From a virus, in the IMG/VR virus record IMGVR_UViG_3300023313_000026, positions 1 to 26,387 of that record: a DNA stretch of 26,387 nucleotides, one strand, 5' to 3'. How positions within the stretch are numbered: the stretch's first letter is position 1; each line of letters starts with the position of its first letter. A model generated the notes under the pieces. The model saw only the letters and a list, made by a program, of their open reading frames with translations, did no database searches and was not told the origin of the DNA. Below are positions 2,791 to 17,571 of this stretch, piece by piece. Both the position numbers and the translations under genes were made by a program.

Positions 2791-4739
2791 ACAACACATT
2801 ACATTTTCAATCAGAAGCAGACTTGCAAAAGCAGGAAGCAGAACAGGCAAGCGCACAAGTACAAACTTCACTTGCACCGATGCTACTTACTCATATTCAG
2901 AAACGATGGACAGAAGCTCAGGAAGCTAAGAAAGTAATAACGCAACGGCTAACAGATTGCCAAAAACGCAGGGCTAGTGAATACAGCGACACGAAGATTG
3001 CAGCAATCCGCAAAACTGGTGGCTCTGAATCATATCCTGCTATCACTTCATCTAAATGTAGGGGTGCTTCGGCATGGATTCGCGACATCCTCTTGCCAGC
3101 CAATGATAAGAGCTGGGGCATTGCTGCAACACCGCAAGCTTCGGTAAAAGACGGTGCGAAAGAGAATGCGAAGCTTATCGTAATGCAGCAGGCACAATCT
3201 GCAATGATGCAGGGTGAGCAAATCACGCCACAGGACGTTGAGGACGCTGTAGGGCGTGCAGAGGAATCCTTTGTTAAAGAAGCACAGGACAAAGCGGATA
3301 AGGCTATGCTGGGCATGGAAAACGTAATAAGCGACCAGCTGGAAGAGGGTGGTTGGCATAAAGCGATGGAGGAAGTGATTGATGATTTCGTCACTTATCC
3401 GACTTGTTTCATGCGTAAAGGTTTGGTGCGTAATCGTGAGCAGATAAAATGGCAACAAACAGAGACAGGTTGGATTCCAGCTATAGAGAGCGAATCAATC
3501 GAAGAGTGGGAGCGCGTTAGCCCATTCGATATATACCCAGCCGCTTATGCCAAAGATTTAAACAGTGCGCCGTTGATCCAAAAGCACAGATTCTCTTTAA
3601 CCCAGCTATCACAAATGGTTGGTGCTAAAGGGTATGACAGCTTTGCGATCAGGCGTATCATGGACAGGTACGAAAACGGCTTAGATGACGAATCAGCAGA
3701 TGAGGCTGCAAGACGCGTTGCAGAGAAACATGCAACATCATCTATCAACTCAAGCACGATTGATGCTTTAGAGCTATGGGATGATGTGACTGGGAAAATG
3801 CTGATCGACTGGGATAAAGGGCGCGGCATTATCGGCTTTGAAGTTGACCCATACAAAACATATCACGTTACAATCATTTCGATTGCTGATGAGATTATAT
3901 CCGCAGACCTTAACCCTGACCTGCTCGGCAAGAAGCCTTACGGCTATGCAAGCTTTGAGCTGGTGTCGGGTTCAGTCTGGGGGACGGCATTGCCAGAGAT
4001 TATATCTGATCCGCAAGACTTGTGTTGTTCAGCAGCAAGAGCTTTAGAAAACAACTTAGCCATGGCTTCTGCCCCAATGGTCGCGCAAGACATTAACGCA
4101 TTACCAGCAGGTGCAGGACTAACAACAATCAGCCCTTGGAAGAACTTTCAATATGATGGCTCGAAAACAAACGGTCGTGTTCCTATCACTTTCTTTCAGC
4201 CCAACTCAAACGCAAATGAGTTGATTGGTATATTCAACAAGTTTTCAGACTTGGCAGAAGAGTATTCTGGTGTGCCTAAATATGCCTATGGTAATTCTGA
4301 TGTTGGTGGAGCAGGTCGCACCGCATCTGGCTTGTCTATCTTGATGAGCAATGCTTCAAAAGGTATCAAGGCAGCGATTGCACACATTGATTTGGGCATT
4401 ATTCGCTATCTAATCACTATGCAATACCAAGACAACATGCTCAATCATCCAGATGAAAGCATAAAAGGTGATGCTCAAGTATCAGCGCGTGGTTCAACTG
4501 CCTTGCTCTTGAAAGAAGTTCAGCAAATGCGCCGTAATGAGCTGTTACAGACAACAGCAAATCAAATTGATATGCAGATTATTGGTGTCGATGGTCGCGC
4601 TAAATTATTACGCGAAACATTTAAAGCCAATGATATTGATGACGTTGTACCGAGTGAAGAAGACTTGATGAGGATGCAAAATGAAGCAAGCCAGCAAGCG
4701 AACACTGCAAGCCTTGAGCAGCCTACAGGGCAACCATGA
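2787..4739 (+). CDS. Portal protein
   Basis: The product is about 650 residues, in the size range of podovirus (P22/Sf6-class) portals, which form the dodecameric ring through which DNA enters and leaves the head. I choose TTG 2787 because GGGAGG at 2775-2780 lies six bases upstream and the codon overlaps the terL stop (TTGA). An in-frame TTG at 2781 directly abuts the ribosome site, which is too close. Recognisable portal segments include ITSSKCRGASAWIRDILLP near residue 86 and a C-terminal region from about residue 508 (GAGRTASGLS, then ASKGIKAAI) typical of this portal class. The N-terminal 30 residues are glutamine-rich, and the last 30 are Q/N-rich and overlap the next gene. Its place between terL and scaffold is canonical. 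Confidence 0.92.
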   Translation: MNNTLHFQSEADLQKQEAEQASAQVQTSLAPMLLTHIQKRWTEAQEAKKVITQRLTDCQKRRASEYSDTKIAAIRKTGGSESYPAITSSKCRGASAWIRDILLPANDKSWGIAATPQASVKDGAKENAKLIVMQQAQSAMMQGEQITPQDVEDAVGRAEESFVKEAQDKADKAMLGMENVISDQLEEGGWHKAMEEVIDDFVTYPTCFMRKGLVRNREQIKWQQTETGWIPAIESESIEEWERVSPFDIYPAAYAKDLNSAPLIQKHRFSLTQLSQMVGAKGYDSFAIRRIMDRYENGLDDESADEAARRVAEKHATSSINSSTIDALELWDDVTGKMLIDWDKGRGIIGFEVDPYKTYHVTIISIADEIISADLNPDLLGKKPYGYASFELVSGSVWGTALPEIISDPQDLCCSAARALENNLAMASAPMVAQDINALPAGAGLTTISPWKNFQYDGSKTNGRVPITFFQPNSNANELIGIFNKFSDLAEEYSGVPKYAYGNSDVGGAGRTASGLSILMSNASKGIKAAIAHIDLGIIRYLITMQYQDNMLNHPDESIKGDAQVSARGSTALLLKEVQQMRRNELLQTTANQIDMQIIGVDGRAKLLRETFKANDIDDVVPSEEDLMRMQNEASQQANTASLEQPTGQP

Positions 4740-4920
4740 CTTTGAAGTTATTATGGACTGGATCAAGGAAACACGAAACGAATTGATAGAGCGATTGCCA
4801 CACGCTGAGGGAGAGCAGACGGCAAAAGCACAAGGACAGTTACTAGACTTGAACGAGATTATCAACACTGCCAACAAGGCAACTGATATTCTGTATCAAG
4901 CTACACACGGAAACACCTGA
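4681..4920 (+). CDS. Small portal-linked accessory protein
   Basis: A 79-residue helical protein overlaps the portal C-terminus by 59 bases. The ATG at 4681 has a good AGGA site six bases upstream (4671-4674). An internal ATG at 4753 (55 residues) has only a weak GAAG. The segment HDFEVIMDWIKETRNELI, followed by EGEQTAKAQGQ and LLDLNEI, resembles small proteins encoded next to portal genes in other tailed phages, and it extends upstream of the internal ATG, which favours the longer form. I cannot name a function. A role in head assembly or as a portal accessory is inferred from position alone. A strong terminator follows 23 bases after the stop. Confidence 0.7.
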   Translation: MKQASKRTLQALSSLQGNHDFEVIMDWIKETRNELIERLPHAEGEQTAKAQGQLLDLNEIINTANKATDILYQATHGNT

Positions 4921-4942
4921 TTAGGCAGGGCTTCCGAACGCT

Positions 4943-4969
4943 AAGGCATCCATCTGGGTGTCTTTTTTT
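4943..4969 (+). terminator. Intrinsic terminator between portal block and scaffold
   Basis: AAGGCATCC (4943-4951), a four-base ATCT loop and GGGTGTCTT (4956-4964) form a 9-bp stem with two wobble pairs, continued by a T-run to 4969. No obvious promoter follows before the scaffold gene at 5021. Partial termination here could set the dosage of scaffold and capsid relative to portal, or the late polymerase complex may read through. Confidence 0.7.
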
Positions 4970-5020
4970 ATGCCTAAAAAACAAGTGAACACCGTTCTAA
5001 CGGCTCATGGAGATAGAAAA

Positions 5021-5962
5021 ATGGGATTACCAAAGCACATCGAAGAAGAACTAGCACAAGCCGAAGAGGACTTCAAGTCTGCATATCCTGACCAAGTGGT
5101 AACCGACACGCAGGAAGCAGAGCAAGAGCCTATAGAAGCAGAAAAGGAAGACGTAGCGACTATCACGCCTGACGAAGTTGTAGAGCAAGAAACTGCACCA
5201 GCGCAAGACGTAGATAATACCGATACCACCAACCTTTTTGAGCAAAGATATAATGTTTTGAAAGGTAAATATAACAAGGAAGTGCCTTTATTGCAGGAGC
5301 AGGTGCGCAACCTGACTTCTCAAGTAGAAACGCTACAGAATCAGCCAGCGAAAAGAAGTGATGCAGACGAAGCACTTATTTCGAAGGTTAAAGATGAGTT
5401 CGGTGACGAGTTCATTGATGATTTCAAGCAAGACTACAGCAGTGAACAACCAGAGAGCGAAGTTGATGCGCTGAAACAGCGTGTTGAATCAGCAGAACAA
5501 GCCACGAAAGACATTCAGCACGAGAGTGCAATGGCAGAGCTTGACCGAACCATGCCTAAATGGCGTGAGCAGGACAGTGACCCATTGTTTCAAGAGTGGC
5601 TGGGTGGTTTGGATGAGTTCTCAGGTGTTGTGCGCAATGAATTGTTAATAAAATCCTTTAAAAATAGAGATCTAGCGCGTGTGAAACTTATTTTTGATGC
5701 GTACAACGTAACCCCGACACAATCACAGCAACCACAAGCAGTCCAGCCAGTAGAAACCCAGCCACAACAACAAAAACGATTGATGCCCTCCGCTTCGCAA
5801 GGAACGGAACAAGCAGAAACAGGCAAGCTATATAGCCAAGCCGATATTGATGCGTTTTATGCCGATGTGAGACAAGGTAGATACAGGAACAGGGCAGCAG
5901 ACGGTGAAAGGATTGAAAGGGATATTTTCGCAGCACAAAACGAAGGGCGAATTACAGCCTAA
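5021..5962 (+). CDS. Capsid scaffold protein
   Basis: A 313-residue, strongly acidic and glutamine-rich protein lies directly before the major capsid gene, the standard place for a scaffold. It would guide assembly of the coat shell and then leave. Residues 1-70 are an acidic low-complexity stretch. The segment at about 77-105 (RYNVLKGKYNKEVPLL, then a heptad-like coiled coil) is a pattern I know from podoviral scaffolds. The C-terminus (residues about 270-313: DIDAFYADVRQGRYR, ending EGRITA) matches the conserved coat-binding tail of that class. I start at ATG 5021, which has GGAG at 5009-5012. The GTG at 4958 and ATG at 4970 lie within or at the edge of the terminator and lack ribosome sites. 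Confidence 0.82.
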   Translation: MGLPKHIEEELAQAEEDFKSAYPDQVVTDTQEAEQEPIEAEKEDVATITPDEVVEQETAPAQDVDNTDTTNLFEQRYNVLKGKYNKEVPLLQEQVRNLTSQVETLQNQPAKRSDADEALISKVKDEFGDEFIDDFKQDYSSEQPESEVDALKQRVESAEQATKDIQHESAMAELDRTMPKWREQDSDPLFQEWLGGLDEFSGVVRNELLIKSFKNRDLARVKLIFDAYNVTPTQSQQPQAVQPVETQPQQQKRLMPSASQGTEQAETGKLYSQADIDAFYADVRQGRYRNRAADGERIERDIFAAQNEGRITA

Positions 5963-7343: not shown

Positions 7344-8036
7344 ATGGGTACATTGACAGCAGATGCGATCATTCTGAAAGCTCGGCGCATTTTTCAAGAC
7401 GATACAGGCGTTAGATGGCAAGATGCGGAAGAGCTGGACTGGCTAAATGACGGGCAACGTGAAATCGTCTTGATTCGCCCTGATGCAAATGTTGTTAATG
7501 CTACCGTTTTGTTATCCGTAGGCACAAAGCAGACGATACCTGCGGCAGGCGTTACGCTGATTGACGTGGTACGCAATATGGTAGGAGCAGGGCAGGCAAC
7601 AGCTGGTAAAGTGGTAAGGCTTGTTGATAGGGAAGTCTTGGATGCAACTAACCCCGACTGGCATAGCCAAGCAGCAAGTGCGAATGGCGAAGTTGACCAT
7701 TACGTTTTTGATAAACGCGACCCTAAAACATTCTATGTTTATCCACAGCCACCTGCTACACCCAACGGCATTGAGCTTGTTTATTCGGCAGCCCCAGATG
7801 TTGTAGCTTTCGTCAATGACACCATAAAAATTGATGATATTTATGCCAACGCATTGCTTGATTACATGCTTTATCGGTCGTATTCAAAAGATGCGGACTA
7901 TTCGGGCAATGTGAATCGTGCAGCCGCACATTTCCAAGCCTTCTTGCAAAGTTTAGGCATGAAGGCGCAAACGGATGCAGTTAATGATCCTAATAATGTA
8001 GCTGTGCCTAACCGTAACACTGTAGCTGGTCGCTAG
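7344..8036 (+). CDS. Adaptor (DUF6682-like) head-tail connector protein
   Basis: A 230-residue protein with a ribosome site (AGGAAACGAGG) just upstream. It resembles the phage adaptor family DUF6682. The N-terminal helix pair (MGTLTADAIILKARRIFQD, then WLNDGQREIVLIRPD) is followed by the conserved KQTIPAAGVTLIDVVRNM. Next come LVDREVLDATNPDWH and the HYVFDKRDPKTFYVYPQPP block with its beta-strand character. A helical C-terminus (ANALLDYMLYRSYSKDADY) completes the family pattern. Such proteins form a ring under the portal that joins head and tail. The next gene begins two bases after its stop and seems to be a partner connector. Confidence 0.82.
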   Translation: MGTLTADAIILKARRIFQDDTGVRWQDAEELDWLNDGQREIVLIRPDANVVNATVLLSVGTKQTIPAAGVTLIDVVRNMVGAGQATAGKVVRLVDREVLDATNPDWHSQAASANGEVDHYVFDKRDPKTFYVYPQPPATPNGIELVYSAAPDVVAFVNDTIKIDDIYANALLDYMLYRSYSKDADYSGNVNRAAAHFQAFLQSLGMKAQTDAVNDPNNVAVPNRNTVAGR

Positions 8037-8038
8037 TC

Positions 8039-8674
8039 ATGGGGTTATTTAGTGATTTACTGTCAGAGGTGCTGCCAGATGTTCCAGATTGCCTTAACAT
8101 CGTTATGGAAAAGGCGATCAGGGACGCTGCGATCAAGTTTTGCGAAGAGACACATATATGGGAAGTGGATTTACCCACCATTTCACTGCTTGCAGACACC
8201 GCAGAATATGCGCTCGCTCCACCAACTAACCAGCAAATCATCAAACTAACCCAAGTGATTATGAACGGCAGAATGATAGAGCCTACAAGTATCGTCAACC
8301 TTGATTCACGCAGCACGACATGGCGCGCACTGATAGGCACACAACCTACAAACTGGCTGATGGTGAACCCTGTAACATTAAGGGCTTATCCAATACCAAG
8401 TGTAGATGGTGCAATTACTGCAAAAGCTATTGTGAAACCATCGAGAACAGCGACAGGTATAGATGACTTTATCAGCAACGATTATTACTTAGCTATTGCA
8501 GCAGGAGCAAAGGCTTTGCTTTGTGCCATGCCGCATAAGGCGTGGACTGCATTAGAGCTGGTATCGTATTATCAAAGCATTTTCAATGAAGGCGTGAACC
8601 GTGCGAAATTGTATAAAAACAGCGGCTTTGCAAGCGCAGATCTTCCGAATCAAACACAGTATTTAGGGGCATAA
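8039..8674 (+). CDS. Second head-tail connector / gp4-like adaptor (probable)
   Basis: This 211-residue protein follows the DUF6682-like gene after two bases, with no clear Shine-Dalgarno site, so it is likely translated by coupling. It has the overall plan of connector-type proteins. An N-terminal helical segment (EKAIRDAAIKFCEETHIWEVDLPTI, residues about 22-46) leads to a beta-rich middle (NWLMVNPVTLRAYPIP). A C-terminal helical bundle follows (YYLAIAAGAKALLCAMPHKAW, YYQSIFNEGVNRAKL). Position after the adaptor and before the fibre gene supports a role in tail attachment. The exact family is uncertain and the name rests on architecture and context. Confidence 0.65.
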   Translation: MGLFSDLLSEVLPDVPDCLNIVMEKAIRDAAIKFCEETHIWEVDLPTISLLADTAEYALAPPTNQQIIKLTQVIMNGRMIEPTSIVNLDSRSTTWRALIGTQPTNWLMVNPVTLRAYPIPSVDGAITAKAIVKPSRTATGIDDFISNDYYLAIAAGAKALLCAMPHKAWTALELVSYYQSIFNEGVNRAKLYKNSGFASADLPNQTQYLGA

Positions 8675-11448: not shown

Positions 11449-11792
11449 TTCTCACAGTGACCCATATTCCGCCAGCCCACTGGTGGCAGCGTGCGCAATG
11501 GTGCTTGCGCCATGATTTACCCGTTGTTGGCATCACTGTGCCTGCTGGTTTTGTTACGGATGCAATCAGCACCCCATGGTTTATGTTTTGGCTTGTCTCG
11601 CCAACGGGCAGGGGCTTCCCCGCTGCTGTGTTGCATGATTACATGCTTTCATTGTTACCTGATGGTGAAAGCAGGCTCGATGCGGATGAGTTGTTCCAAG
11701 ATGCCTTAGTGGCTTGCGCTGTTTCGCCGTGGCGAGCAAAGGGCATGTTTTACGCTGTACGCGCTTACGCATTTTTCAAAGGGGCTTTCTGA
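11445..11792 (+). CDS. DUF1353 family phage protein
   Basis: This 115-residue protein begins at GTG 11445, overlapping the previous stop (GTGA). It shows the DUF1353 hallmarks: the VPAGFVTDAIS motif at residues 32-42, then FPAAVLHDYM at 58-67, and a C-terminal helical segment with LDADELFQDALV at 78-89. DUF1353 proteins are widespread in tailed phages and have no settled function; the HD pair in LHDY hints at metal or catalytic chemistry, which is only an inference. It overlaps the next gene by TGATG, so the run is one transcription unit. Length is usual for the family. Confidence 0.88.
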   Translation: MILTVTHIPPAHWWQRAQWCLRHDLPVVGITVPAGFVTDAISTPWFMFWLVSPTGRGFPAAVLHDYMLSLLPDGESRLDADELFQDALVACAVSPWRAKGMFYAVRAYAFFKGAF

Positions 11793-12487
11793 TGGCAGTT
11801 GATCCCGTTGTCTGGGCAAATGACATGCGGGCGGCTATCGCACAGATGGCAGGGGCAATGCGCGTGATTGCTACTGCGGAGACGCAGCCAGAATGGAAAT
11901 CTTATTTTGATGCGTGGCGCAAAGACCCTTCGCTTTCTAAGTCCACTCGCAAAACAATCAAGTCTTTGATGCCTGCTGTGTTAGCTATTTCTGATGATTT
12001 GGATGACCCGTTGCTTACTGAGATCGGCATTGATGTTTTAGCATTGCCTGTGCCTGTGAGTTTTTCTGGGCAAAATCTTCCCTCCCCCAAAGATTTAAAG
12101 ATTGCCCAAGTTGACATGCACGAAAGCCCCTCTGAAACAGCACATGAAATCTTGGTGCTTACGCATCCTACGCGCATCTGCACGTTGACCATCAAGCAAG
12201 TGTCAGACGGTGTTGCGGTGGATGCCCCCGTGACCATGACAGAAGTAACCGCTGGCGTGTTTACCCACACTATTGATTGGAGCGTCTTAGCCGTAGCAGT
12301 GGGCTACTACATCATAGAAGTGACCGATGAGCATGAGCTTGATGCTGCTCTCATCGAATTGAAAGAACCACCAACAGAATCACACACCCAAGCTGATAAA
12401 GTCTGGATGTTGCAAAACGTCACAGGCGGCACTGGTGGCGGTGGTGGTAGCTATCCATCTGCGAAAGCGGACGGAAGCTTTATTTAA
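11792..12487 (+). CDS. Phage structural-type protein with Ig-like motif and Gly-rich tail
   Basis: A 231-residue protein starting at ATG 11792 (TGATG overlap; the in-frame extension upstream lies inside DUF1353). Residues 1-75 are helical, with a WKSYFDAWRKDPSL segment. The remainder looks beta-rich, with a G-V-F-x-H ... VGYYIIEV pair (nt 12250-12326) that recurs in three following proteins. The C-terminus has a GGTGGGGGS run and ends ADGSFI, like a flexible linker or exposed tail. No family is recognised. The helix-plus-beta layout suggests a small structural subunit attached to the tail or fibre complex. Confidence 0.6.
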   Translation: MAVDPVVWANDMRAAIAQMAGAMRVIATAETQPEWKSYFDAWRKDPSLSKSTRKTIKSLMPAVLAISDDLDDPLLTEIGIDVLALPVPVSFSGQNLPSPKDLKIAQVDMHESPSETAHEILVLTHPTRICTLTIKQVSDGVAVDAPVTMTEVTAGVFTHTIDWSVLAVAVGYYIIEVTDEHELDAALIELKEPPTESHTQADKVWMLQNVTGGTGGGGGSYPSAKADGSFI

Positions 12488-12507
12488 TCTTATCAAAGGA
12501 GATAAGA
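12488..12507 (+). promoter_or_regulatory. Hairpin presenting a Shine-Dalgarno site in its loop
   Basis: TCTTATC (12488-12494) and GATAAGA (12501-12507) form a perfect 7-bp stem around the loop AAAGGA. The Shine-Dalgarno AGGAG (12497-12501) is thus in the loop and first stem base, two bases before ATG 12509 resumes after the stem. Such a structure could promote or tune translation of the next gene. Confidence 0.5.
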
Positions 12508-12508
12508 C

Positions 12509-12913
12509 ATGGCTTTAACAGCATTTCAAAACAAGTCTGCGGACTTAGTTTATGACACAGAAGGAACGCAAAGCGGTGTGACTGACTTGCGGTTTGACAT
12601 TTATGACCCAGCAGGCGCACACGATCCTCTTGTGGATTTCGTAACTGCTACAGAAGTCGGCAACAGCGGTGTCTATAAAGCATCATTCACGCCTACTTTG
12701 GTTGGTACTTACGTTGTGCTTGCATCATCTGCGTTGTCTTCACCTTTGATCGACAACAAAGCTGGTACTGTGACTGTTCGCGCTCACGATGAAAACGCCA
12801 TCGCTGGTGCTGGATTCGTTTCTGCAACGGATTCACTTGAAGCAATGAGCAATCAACTTGTGACCATTGCCGCGTCACAGGGCGCACCATCTGCTCGCGG
12901 ACGCGTGATTTAA
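12509..12913 (+). CDS. Small beta-sandwich-like phage protein
   Basis: A 134-residue protein preceded by AAAGGAG within a hairpin loop. It looks like an Ig-like fold: strands around DLRFDIYDPAG, then SGVYKASFTPTLVGTYVVLASSAL (within nt 12661-12726), a pattern seen in bacterial Ig-like adhesin and phage decoration domains. The C-terminus is helical (ATDSLEAMSNQLVTIAAS). It is the second of four neighbouring proteins sharing this GV(Y/F) ... G(x)(Y/W) strand pair. Role unknown; a surface or fibre-associated decoration is the simplest reading. Confidence 0.6.
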   Translation: MALTAFQNKSADLVYDTEGTQSGVTDLRFDIYDPAGAHDPLVDFVTATEVGNSGVYKASFTPTLVGTYVVLASSALSSPLIDNKAGTVTVRAHDENAIAGAGFVSATDSLEAMSNQLVTIAASQGAPSARGRVI

Positions 12914-12941
12914 TCATGCTTAGCGGTGTTAGGTACTCCCT

Positions 12942-13349
12942 ATGATTAAGACAATTCGTTATATGGACGTGCCTAACATCGTGCTTGCTTGCGAGGTTTA
13001 CGACAGCTCCGACACCCTTCTTTCTAGCACTATCATGGCTGAGACAGGCATTGTGGGCGTGTATCGACACGATATTGATGTTTCTGCATTGGTTGGTGAT
13101 GTCTGGGTGCTTATCCGTGATTCGCAAGGCGCTGTTCGTGAAATGGTCAAGATTGCACCAAGTATTGATAGCTTGAAAGTCGATATTGATTTCTTACGCG
13201 CCATCGAAGGTGGGCGCTGGCAGATTGTTGGTCAGCAAATGGTATTCTTTGCTGAGAACAACACGACAGAAGTTGCAAGGTTCGACTTCAAAGATGATGC
13301 AGGGCTATTGACCAATCCTGAGACTGCGTTTGAACGGACGCGCGTATGA
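12942..13349 (+). CDS. Small beta-sandwich-like phage protein
   Basis: A 135-residue protein starting at ATG 12942, with only a weak upstream AGG. The N-terminal half has beta-like strands, including GVYRHDIDVSALVGDVWVLI (nt 13051-13115), which matches the strand-pair motif of its neighbours. A helical stretch (SIDSLKVDIDFLRAIEGG) and a second short beta-rich unit (WQIVGQQMVFFAENNTTEVARFDF) follow. The final segment reads like a 'coefficient/fallback' domain seen in phage proteins that carry a trailing strand, but I know no family name. It overlaps the next gene by ATGA, so expression is coupled. Confidence 0.6.
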   Translation: MIKTIRYMDVPNIVLACEVYDSSDTLLSSTIMAETGIVGVYRHDIDVSALVGDVWVLIRDSQGAVREMVKIAPSIDSLKVDIDFLRAIEGGRWQIVGQQMVFFAENNTTEVARFDFKDDAGLLTNPETAFERTRV

Positions 13350-13816
13350 ATTACATGCTGTTTAGAGGCTTGCTTGGCTTCATTATCACGAGAGGATATG
13401 GCTCTGTTCGCCCTCTGCGTGAGGCGTTTATTGCTGTCTCTTACCTTGCCCTGCAATACCGTGCCGATGTTCCCATGAGCATGGCTTGGCAGGCTAAGCT
13501 AACATTGCAACGCGCTTGGGCTGAGAACGTCATTATTTACGAATTACCTAATTTTATTACCAAAGCTTTTATCGTGCTTCGCCGCGTGTATCAATTAGCC
13601 ATCAAGAAAGATAGCTCTTTTGTTTCAACGTCTTATATCAAAATGGGTATGCGTAGCAAGGTTTCCATCAAACAAAAATCAGGGTACAATGCAAGGGCGG
13701 CTCTCTTGCAGCAATTTGCAGGCGATGCCGTGTTGGTGCAGGCATTTCAATCGCGTGTTGGCTTGCAACAAAAAAGCGTACATGCAGCAATTTTAGAGGT
13801 GAGTTATGGCAGGTAA
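13346..13816 (+). CDS. Basic phage protein of unknown function
   Basis: A 156-residue, lysine- and arginine-rich protein. It starts at ATG 13346, overlapping the previous stop (ATGA), and its end overlaps the next start by 11 bases. It is largely helical: a hydrophobic N-terminal 35 residues (FRGLLGFIITRGYGSV) is followed by helices with SMAWQAKLTLQRAWAENV and KAFIVLRRVYQLAIKK. The net positive charge could reflect nucleic-acid or membrane-surface contact. I recognise no domain. It sits amid the beta-sandwich cassette and differs from those neighbours in fold type. Confidence 0.6.
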   Translation: MNYMLFRGLLGFIITRGYGSVRPLREAFIAVSYLALQYRADVPMSMAWQAKLTLQRAWAENVIIYELPNFITKAFIVLRRVYQLAIKKDSSFVSTSYIKMGMRSKVSIKQKSGYNARAALLQQFAGDAVLVQAFQSRVGLQQKSVHAAILEVSYGR

Positions 13817-14114
13817 AATTTATGTTGGCGATATTGGTACAGCTTTTCGCTTGATTATGACCGACCCCGACACCAACCAGCCCATTGATATTTCAACGGC
13901 ATCCAGCCTCAATATCAGCGTGAAAAAACCCAATGGCACGATTGAAAATTGGGTGGCGCAGAATGGCGCAAACATTGGCGAAGTGGAGCATATTGCGATT
14001 GCAGGAGACTTGGATATTGCTGGCAACTATCAGCTTCAAGCTATCGTTGCGCTCCCCTCGTGGAGTGGGCGTTCTGAAACAGCTGCAACTACAATATATC
14101 AGCCTTTCAAATAA
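13806..14114 (+). CDS. Small beta-domain protein resembling a baseplate/fibre N-terminal domain
   Basis: A 102-residue protein with the signature IGTAFRLIMTDPDTNQPIDI and LNISVKKPNGTI, followed by EHIAIAGDLDIAGNYQLQAI (within nt 13978-14050). This arrangement is common in small phage structural proteins and resembles the BppU-type N-terminal baseplate domain. It carries the same G ... AG(N)Y strand pair as three upstream proteins. It starts inside the last codons of the preceding gene (11-base overlap), with GAGG near 13796. A role in a tail or fibre complex is plausible but unproved. Confidence 0.65.
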   Translation: MAGKIYVGDIGTAFRLIMTDPDTNQPIDISTASSLNISVKKPNGTIENWVAQNGANIGEVEHIAIAGDLDIAGNYQLQAIVALPSWSGRSETAATTIYQPFK

Positions 14115-15909: not shown

Positions 15910-17571
15910 GTGGCAATTATCAGTATTAAACAATTTAAAGGCACAGCTCCAAGGGTTAATCCACGTCATTTAGGCAATGAGCAGGCGCAAACGGCAGCCA
16001 ATGTGAACCTGTTATCGGGAAAACTTGCCGCACTTAAAACGCTGCTTTCGTTAGCTTGGACAAATCAAATCACTGGCAATATTGGCACGTTATACCGTTT
16101 TGCAAGCGGCACGAATGCGCCTAAAATGCTTGAGTTTATAGGCAGCGGCATTGATATTGTACGCGGCGCAACAGCACAAAACACCGATGAGCGCACCTAT
16201 TACACAGACGGCATCAAGCCTAAAAAGTTTGATGCAACGATGGTTGATGTTAGCGGTAATATCATAGCAAGAGATTTAGGCTTACCTATCCCTAGCGCAC
16301 CGTCTGCTGGCGGCAATGCTAATACCGATGAAGGGCTAAACGAAACCACACACTATATCTGCACTTATGTTTCAGACTGGGGCGAAGAGAGCGCACCGAA
16401 TGCAGTAGGCACACCAACGCTGATTACTTTTGACGGCACAGCACCATCTATTGCTTTGACTGGGTTACCGACTGCGGTTGCAGGTGCAGCAAACATTGTG
16501 AGTTATCGGGTTTATCGCTTGGCAACAGGATATAACGGCACGAACTACCAATTTGTCACAGAGCAGAATGTAGGCACAACCACCTTTACCGATACCATCA
16601 AAACGCAAGACTTGGGCGAAACATTGCCAGTTGAGGGATTAGCTTCACCACCTGACACCATGCAGGGCTTAACATCTATGCCGAATGGTATGCTTGCAGG
16701 GTTCAATGGGTCGGATGTTTTGTTTAGCGAGCCATATCAACCCCATGCTTTTCCAGTCGCATACATGAAAGCCACCGATTCACCGATTGTAGGCTTGGCT
16801 TCTTTTGGCAACACGCTAATGATCGCAACGCAGGACACTCCATATATTGTAGTCGGCGCACATCCATCATCTATGACCATGCAAAAGCTAGAGTTGGCAC
16901 AATCTTGCGTTTCCAAGCGAAGCATTGTTGATATGGGGTATTATGCAGCCTATGCCTCGCCTGATGGCTTGGTCAATGTAAGCAGTGGCAGTGCAAAGGT
17001 TGTAACATCAAGCTTGATTACCAAGGCACAATGGCAAGCCCTTAATCCTTCAACTATCCATGCTTATCTTTATGAAGGTAAGTATATTGCATTTTATGAT
17101 GCAACGGCTACTGGTGGCGTAAAAGGTGGCTTTATTATTGATGGTGATAATCCTGATTATGGTATTACTTGGCTTGACCAATGGTACACCACAGGCTTTA
17201 CCGACAGCGTAAGCAATACGCTTTACCTTGTAACGCCGCAAGATTTATCGGTAACACCAGCAATACAACCTGATATTGTTATGTGGGAAGCAGGCGCAGC
17301 CAACCAAAGCTATACATGGAAATCAAAGGTATTTACCATGCCTAAACCTATGAGCTTTGCATGTATGCAGGTATTGGCAGCCAGTTATGGCTTTACGATC
17401 AAAGTGTTTGCTGATGGTGTGTTAAAACATTCACAAACAGTAGCGAGTGGCAGTCCTTTCCGTTTACCTGCTGGATTCATGGCTTTGGATTGGGAGGTTG
17501 AGATTGCTGGATCTTCCGAGATTTACAGTGTCGATATTGCCAACGCTATGAATGAACTAGGGAAATTCTAA
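15910..17571 (+). CDS. Large tail structural protein, nozzle-like
   Basis: A 553-residue protein starting at GTG 15910, with an AGGGG site (15898-15902) seven bases upstream. The N-terminal segment (FKGTAPRVNPRHLGNEQAQTAANVNL) and the repeated blade-like strands are typical of a family found in podovirus tails. They include SMPNGMLAGFNGSDVLFSEPY, LASFGNTLMIATQDTPYIVVG, and SKRSIVDMGYYAAYASPDGLV. A fibronectin-III-like unit lies at about 135-240 (GLNETTHYICTYVSDWGEESAP). Proteins with this pattern have a beta-propeller-like repeat reminiscent of T7 gp12 tail nozzle; that functional match is inferred. It ends by overlapping the start of the J-like gene (TAATG). Confidence 0.72.
   Translation: MAIISIKQFKGTAPRVNPRHLGNEQAQTAANVNLLSGKLAALKTLLSLAWTNQITGNIGTLYRFASGTNAPKMLEFIGSGIDIVRGATAQNTDERTYYTDGIKPKKFDATMVDVSGNIIARDLGLPIPSAPSAGGNANTDEGLNETTHYICTYVSDWGEESAPNAVGTPTLITFDGTAPSIALTGLPTAVAGAANIVSYRVYRLATGYNGTNYQFVTEQNVGTTTFTDTIKTQDLGETLPVEGLASPPDTMQGLTSMPNGMLAGFNGSDVLFSEPYQPHAFPVAYMKATDSPIVGLASFGNTLMIATQDTPYIVVGAHPSSMTMQKLELAQSCVSKRSIVDMGYYAAYASPDGLVNVSSGSAKVVTSSLITKAQWQALNPSTIHAYLYEGKYIAFYDATATGGVKGGFIIDGDNPDYGITWLDQWYTTGFTDSVSNTLYLVTPQDLSVTPAIQPDIVMWEAGAANQSYTWKSKVFTMPKPMSFACMQVLAASYGFTIKVFADGVLKHSQTVASGSPFRLPAGFMALDWEVEIAGSSEIYSVDIANAMNELGKF

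Follow-up and report, generated by a model that had tools for sequence, protein, structure and literature searches.

In the T2/S16-type gp37–gp38 and the Tfa-type pairs, the conserved C-terminus of a fibre faces the conserved N-terminus of a downstream, otherwise variable protein; in phage T4, the fibritin gene wac is located before gene 13. PMC3797505 describes fibritin as a coiled coil with a C-terminal trimerising unit, and folding of phage Aeh1 fibritin requires the protein of the downstream gene. PMC7291167 reports the BppU N-terminal fold as an anchor of receptor-binding proteins in several siphophages and also as the fold of a small T5 protein, p132; in DT57C, the collar protein LtfC helps lateral fibre attachment (PMC10713586). 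The locus described here lies in the complete IMG/VR record IMGVR_UViG_3300023313_000026 of an uncultured virus (26,387 bases, the whole stretch analysed, hereafter the window) and consists of five genes, P1–P5, starting at 11792, 12509, 12942, 13346 and 13806, in that order. Judged by homology and synteny, its three immunoglobulin (Ig)-like proteins and two partners probably form a modular surface fibre or adaptor device; fibre/adaptor devices as such are known, and what is undescribed, as far as the searches given below go, is the conserved C-terminal module of P3 together with its partner P4. The features of the cassette are as follows (aa, amino acids; nt, nucleotides):

11792..12487, + strand: P1, 231 aa; N-terminal ~95 residues without match, Ig-like domain at ~96–210, Gly-rich tail
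12509..12913, + strand: P2, 134 aa; Ig-like domain at ~residues 1–95, short C-terminal tail
12942..13349, + strand: P3, 135 aa; Ig-like domain 1–71, helix 73–90, conserved C-terminal module 89–135
13205..13346, + strand: C-terminal module of P3, ~last 47 codons (alignment of 80 relatives plus P3)
13346..13349, + strand: ATGA, 4-nt overlap of P4 start and P3 stop (read from the sequence)
13346..13816, + strand: P4, 156 aa, TRGxG protein; IITRGYG at residues 13–19, remainder variable
13806..14114, + strand: P5, 102 aa, stand-alone beta-sandwich resembling the BppU N-terminal domain (family profile, AF2 model, fold matches)

A check of the open reading frames (ORFs) located the genes at 11792, 12509, 12942 and 13806, named in a preliminary description of this DNA, at exactly these positions; the ATG of P1 sits within a longer ORF having a TTG start. 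The same description took the cassette for a four-member set and overlooked P4 (13346–13816), which lies between its third and fourth members; P4 is the most informative neighbour of these genes and must be included within the cassette boundary.

P3 ends in a module of the pattern GRWxI...QMxF...ER.RV, which was sought, as a degenerate DNA pattern drawn from the end of P3, in viral contigs and in genomes. The viral contigs gave 90 stretches, 88 of these loci (IMG/VR fragments) having an in-frame protein (89 proteins; none in L052 and L100); 257 Gb of bacterial and archaeal genomes gave 26 stretches, 3 of them real. The contrast of 88/90 viral with 3/26 genomic stretches shows the chance rate as well as the viral nature of the module. 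After removal of redundancy by identical last 50 residues, 77 of the 89 viral proteins were kept and, with the 3 from genomes, gave 80 non-redundant proteins that have the module in common and N-terminal parts, 30 to 1400 aa long, that are mutually unrelated. Nearly all pattern-found proteins end with the module; it is not quite terminal in L023 (extension of ~28 residues), in L055 (eight) and in a few others (3 to 5), and the L121 protein is truncated at the contig end.

The search pattern fixes eleven positions of the module, so conservation at these positions is a product of selection by the search; the evidence for the module rests on the other positions, on gene order and on the viral/genome contrast. 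Columns G91, T109 and R132 of alignment A3, all outside the search pattern, are invariant at an identity of 23–39%. Profile A3 gave 0 matches in 369 sampled genomes of one class, centred on the L124 genome (a gammaproteobacterial metagenome-assembled genome), and 2 matches in 395 genomes from the phylum of the L103 genome. Pfam and PHROGs gave the module no name in 10 scanned relatives; family scans of the large module proteins mostly gave no match, apart from DUF2341 in L011 and weak Ig-type matches in L047. The L079 contig encodes two different proteins with the same module (4525–5268 and 7666–8151), neither of which is followed by a strict TRGxG gene. In several contigs a gene with a GGGxxG start, which we take to be patatin-like, adjoins the module protein (L018:106–990, L026:1696–2583, L079:8252–9124).

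A gene with TRG[FYMLW]G was found directly downstream of the module protein in 56 of the 74 cases with room for it and upstream in 0 of 62; TRG-like sequences were seen in 12 of the remaining 18 downstream genes when a relaxed motif was read by eye. The motif is rare: it occurs within the first 90 residues in only 75 of the 6756 ORFs across the collected loci, and the chance of TRGxG in shuffles of P4 is 0.0012. An exact 4-nt start/stop overlap with the module protein, the same as in the window, is present in 28/74 relatives. The C-terminal parts of the TRGxG-type relatives are variable and repeat-rich. None of the ORFs fuses the module with TRGxG; in L140 the TRG and P5 parts are fused in one ORF, which has a 4-nt overlap with its P3-like gene. 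An additional small gene with short Leu/Ser-rich repeats is often present ahead of the P5 relative, either immediately or between it and the TRGxG gene (L132:3510–3695, L141:11239–11424, L136:531–692, L137:7764–8060).

The order of module and then TRGxG, with conserved ends facing each other, is that of a fibre and its downstream tip or chaperone. Since the conserved ends meet at the gene boundary (in the window, across the ATGA overlap) and the outer parts vary, P3 and P4 most likely bind through these ends, the C-terminus of P3 taking up the N-terminus of P4 presumably during coupled translation. P3 adds a helix and the conserved C-terminal beta-module to its Ig-like domain, and P4 opens with the conserved TRGxG segment. 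The gp37–gp38 and Tfa-type pairs have the same facing-ends layout as P3–P4; no sequence relation to them was found, and P4 has TRGxG and apparently no gp38-type domains. There is also a likeness to T4 fibritin (wac) and the Aeh1 chaperone: P3 has, in the monomer model, a helix followed by a small C-terminal beta unit, its partner gene is directly downstream, and a wac-like location before neck genes is seen in 16/54 loci. Fibritin, however, has a conserved N-terminus and a variable C-terminus, whereas the module proteins show the reverse; no sequence match was seen, and in place of the conserved N-terminal neck-binding domain of fibritin, the module proteins have N-terminal parts that are mutually unrelated.

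The AF2 model of P3 (32 sequences; predicted local distance difference test (pLDDT) 83.5) comprises an N-terminal half with an Ig/FN3-type beta-sandwich (residues 1–71), the helix 73–90 and a C-terminal beta-meander (last 45 residues, pLDDT 93–97). Against PDB, the Ig region matched Ig, FN3 and macroglobulin domains with Z up to 7.7, no family standing out; these matches are generic and uninformative on function. BFVD held a single match at E ≤ 0.001, to a protein of an uncultured phage that is uncharacterised.

A strand-pair motif was previously ascribed to four of the proteins. As the regular expression G[VE][FY].{5,20}G.[YWV].[IVL] it fits P1, P2 and P3 exactly, composition-preserving shuffles fitting at 0.0018, 0.0024 and 0.0028, respectively; P5 falls outside it, since 'EHIAIAG' is without the first half of the motif. 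P1–P3 are the sole matches among the 109 window ORFs of at least 60 aa, and 7 of the 4009 ORFs of 60–260 aa in the fetched loci match; a chance origin of the motif in P1–P3 was ruled out by the shuffles and by this rarity. The motif was picked after the sequences had been seen, so these values are optimistic, and an independent Ig profile was therefore used as the test (26 Ig-like domains of other phages, zero window sequences; 20,000 shuffles per protein): P1 – 21.5 bits (0/20,000 shuffles as good), P2 – 34.2 bits (0/20,000), P3 – 9.6 bits (5/20,000), P4 – −1.5 bits (14,631/20,000), P5 – −0.5 bits (6800/20,000). On the last figures P5 was rejected as a fourth copy of the domain of P1–P3. Compared with the full 26-domain profile, sub-profiles were weaker and mixed: group A (5 sequences), p = 0.0011 (P1), 5e-5 (P2), 0.052 (P3); group B (9 sequences), 0.0006, 0.027 and 0.028; group C (12 sequences), 0.12, 0.038 and 0.17.

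On these profile scores, P1, P2 and P3 are identified as divergent copies of one Ig-like domain, likely by duplication, with P1 and P2 as putative additional Ig subunits of the device. The remark that the proteins are otherwise dissimilar holds in direct pairwise comparison (P2 vs P3, E = 2.7). By phmmer, P2 matches a module-bearing protein of L076 in its Ig domain (E = 6e-5) and a gene just upstream of the module-bearing protein in L075 (E = 4e-4); P2-type and P3-type Ig domains are therefore connected via other phages. Two adjacent ~130-aa Ig-like proteins related to P2 are encoded by Vibrio phage vB_VcorM_GR7B (L010:4502 and 4944; E = 3e-8 and 0.22, the phmmer value for L010:4944 being 3e-8), which differs from the window in that its whole record is without the module or a P5 relative. 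These tandem Ig-like genes (L010:4502–5339) belong to an isolate phage and could serve as a laboratory model.

The AF2 model of P5 (17 sequences; pLDDT 95.1) is a beta-sandwich, and a profile of 16 relatives from which P5 had been left out scores P5 at E = 5.5e-24. Foldseek comparison of the model with the baseplate proteins of TP901-1, 80alpha and NF5 gave TMq 0.55–0.74 (E 0.004–0.02); Z for BppU-type chains was 9.1, 8.7, 8.1 and 7.9, the first three values being those for these baseplate proteins, with generic Ig folds scoring alike. The structural matches also include two phage neck proteins. Pfam BppU_N matches 1/17 members of the P5 family (E = 2.5e-4) and does not match P5 itself. The proposed series of beta-sandwich subunits thus stands in outline, in the Ig profile for P1–P3 and in the two models obtained (P3 and P5); P5 is, however, a different sandwich of a separate domain family, and P4 had been omitted.

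P5 relatives occur within 1200 nt downstream of the module protein in 16 of the 67 cases with room (distance 173–630 nt). A second search pattern, built from the P5 family without reference to the module, returned 27 stretches, of which 25 belong to that family; the module set already contained 14, and 11 were new. Where the contig end did not cut the locus, a module protein was found upstream in 18/21. The new loci divide into L129, L130, L140 and L141, with a module protein upstream; L131, L132, L136 and L138, cut close upstream (L132 still has TRGxG); and L134, L135 and L137, without a module protein by profile. Near-identical among the P5-bearing loci are L021/L046/L054, L049/L073 and L092/L099. 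The isolate Alteromonas phage vB_AmeP_PT11-V19 has a P5 relative (L009:4851–5228, E 3.5e-12) directly before the portal gene, without the module.

P5 resembles BppU_N (TP901-1 ORF48 and the 80alpha and NF5 baseplates) and T5 p132 in being a small beta-sandwich adaptor candidate encoded beside the fibre genes; unlike the BppU_N systems, it stands alone, follows the TRG gene and is found in a podovirus-type genome. As a BppU-N-like sandwich, P5 may be the adaptor fixing the assembly to the virion. Elsewhere, the cassette adjoins many kinds of structural gene (tail fibre, neck adaptor, portal, head). A neck adaptor (Ad2-like) follows in 16 of the 54 loci having at least 2.5 kb downstream, and 15 of these 16 also have a tail sheath stabiliser. 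Labels of the kind 'T4-like' were inferred from PHROG matches on one locus and extended by phmmer. Because P5 resembles the BppU N-terminal adaptors and the cassette is near neck genes in this phage sub-group, an attachment or collar device is favoured.

The chance that the five genes together build a small virion device, fibre-like or an adaptor, is put at somewhat better than even. Several observations weigh against it. The cassette is missing from L005, the closest relative found (54% identity in the gene at 15910); the Ig score of P3 is weak (9.6 bits); and P5, being absent near 51/67 module proteins, is not obligatory. The fold matches of P5 score level with generic Ig folds (BCAP DBB domain, Z 9.2), Foldseek of its model gave zero matches at E ≤ 0.001, and the podovirus-type genome of the window has no known Dit ring to which a BppU-N domain could attach. 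A more far-reaching version of the five-gene device is doubtful: the P3 module and the P4 TRGxG segment would form a single docking unit, each half being synthesised as its own chain and joined to the other at the ribosome. The unit would act as a universal coupling between any N-terminal display domain and any P4-type tip, in uncultured phages of myo-, sipho- and podovirus type, with P5 as the virion socket.

A dedicated folding chaperone would also suit the layout, in which a fibre-like protein has its C-terminus conserved and a small protein coded directly downstream has its N-terminus conserved; the Aeh1 fibritin chaperone is downstream-coded as well (PMC3797505). P4 would then assist P3 and leave the virion; P1–P3 alone would be on display, as Ig-like decoration or fibre proteins, with P5 as an unrelated neighbour. 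This is judged unlikely: L140 fuses P4-type and P5-type parts, linking P4 to an adaptor fold of structural type, and the variable, repeat-rich C-terminal parts of the P4 relatives resemble a displayed part. Quite improbable are Hoc-like, weakly binding Ig decorations of capsid or tail with the P3–P4 junction as a recombination hot spot for gene swapping. The module and TRG segment do adjoin in DNA with unrelated flanks, in phages with quite different neighbours; conservation is, however, on the protein level (the invariant A3 residues), DNA identity being low for recombination at 23–39% A3 identity, and P5 also belongs to the cassette. Very improbable is a set of lysis-region accessory proteins without a virion role, between the tail fibre and endolysin/holin-like genes, although in the window the cassette is followed by genes for a coiled-coil membrane protein (14114) and a lysozyme-like protein (14668): elsewhere the cassette adjoins tail fibre, neck adaptor, portal or head genes, and P5 resembles baseplate proteins. 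On these neighbours and the P5 likeness, lysis was rejected as the principal role.

The preliminary description knew of no such cassette, and this agrees with the searches: peptide strings from the module and the TRG motif were absent from a literature collection of 5.39 million papers, and P1–P5 have no family in Pfam, PHROGs or NCBIfam. The module was found in none of 50,697 phage records, and searching viral contigs with P2, P3 and P5 singly gave no relative. In phages, tblastn gave no match for P1 and P3, one weak match each for P2 and P5, and no convincing match for the module of a relative (E ≤ 0.01), a whole module protein (E ≤ 10) or a P5 relative (E ≤ 0.1). A profile search of the whole records of five isolate phages and L005 (control: 6/6 known positives recovered) gave no P3 relative and one P5 relative, that of PT11-V19. 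Within these searches, the module and its partner appear to form an undescribed family; they recur in phages with unrelated neighbours, yet are unnamed in the searched family libraries. Should the pair couple display to tip, it would be a shared and readily testable element of host contact among uncultured phages, and module, ATGA, TRGxG and BppU-like protein would be a handle for locating the adhesion loci of metagenomic viruses.

By family scans the window belongs to a tailed phage; the genes around the cassette are (start positions):

1369: large terminase (family scan)
2781: portal-type head-tail adaptor (family scan)
6022: major capsid protein (family scan)
7344 and 8039: structural proteins (family scan)
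8676: tail fibre (family scan)
14114: coiled-coil membrane protein, next gene after the cassette
14668: lysozyme-like gene, downstream of the cassette (NCBIfam match)
15910: phrog_511 'internal virion protein' (family scan)
17571: J-like fibre (family scan)

The 15910 protein has 169 distant relatives in phage records (30–33% identity for the best listed), including those of Burkholderia phage DC1 (Lessievirus), Vibrio phages and Aeromonas phages, which we take to be podoviruses. In Aeromonas phage phiARM81mr the slot of the cassette (L002:9828–11905) holds genes annotated as a 23S rRNA-intervening-sequence protein and a retron-type reverse transcriptase, a pair presumably resembling a diversity-generating retroelement.

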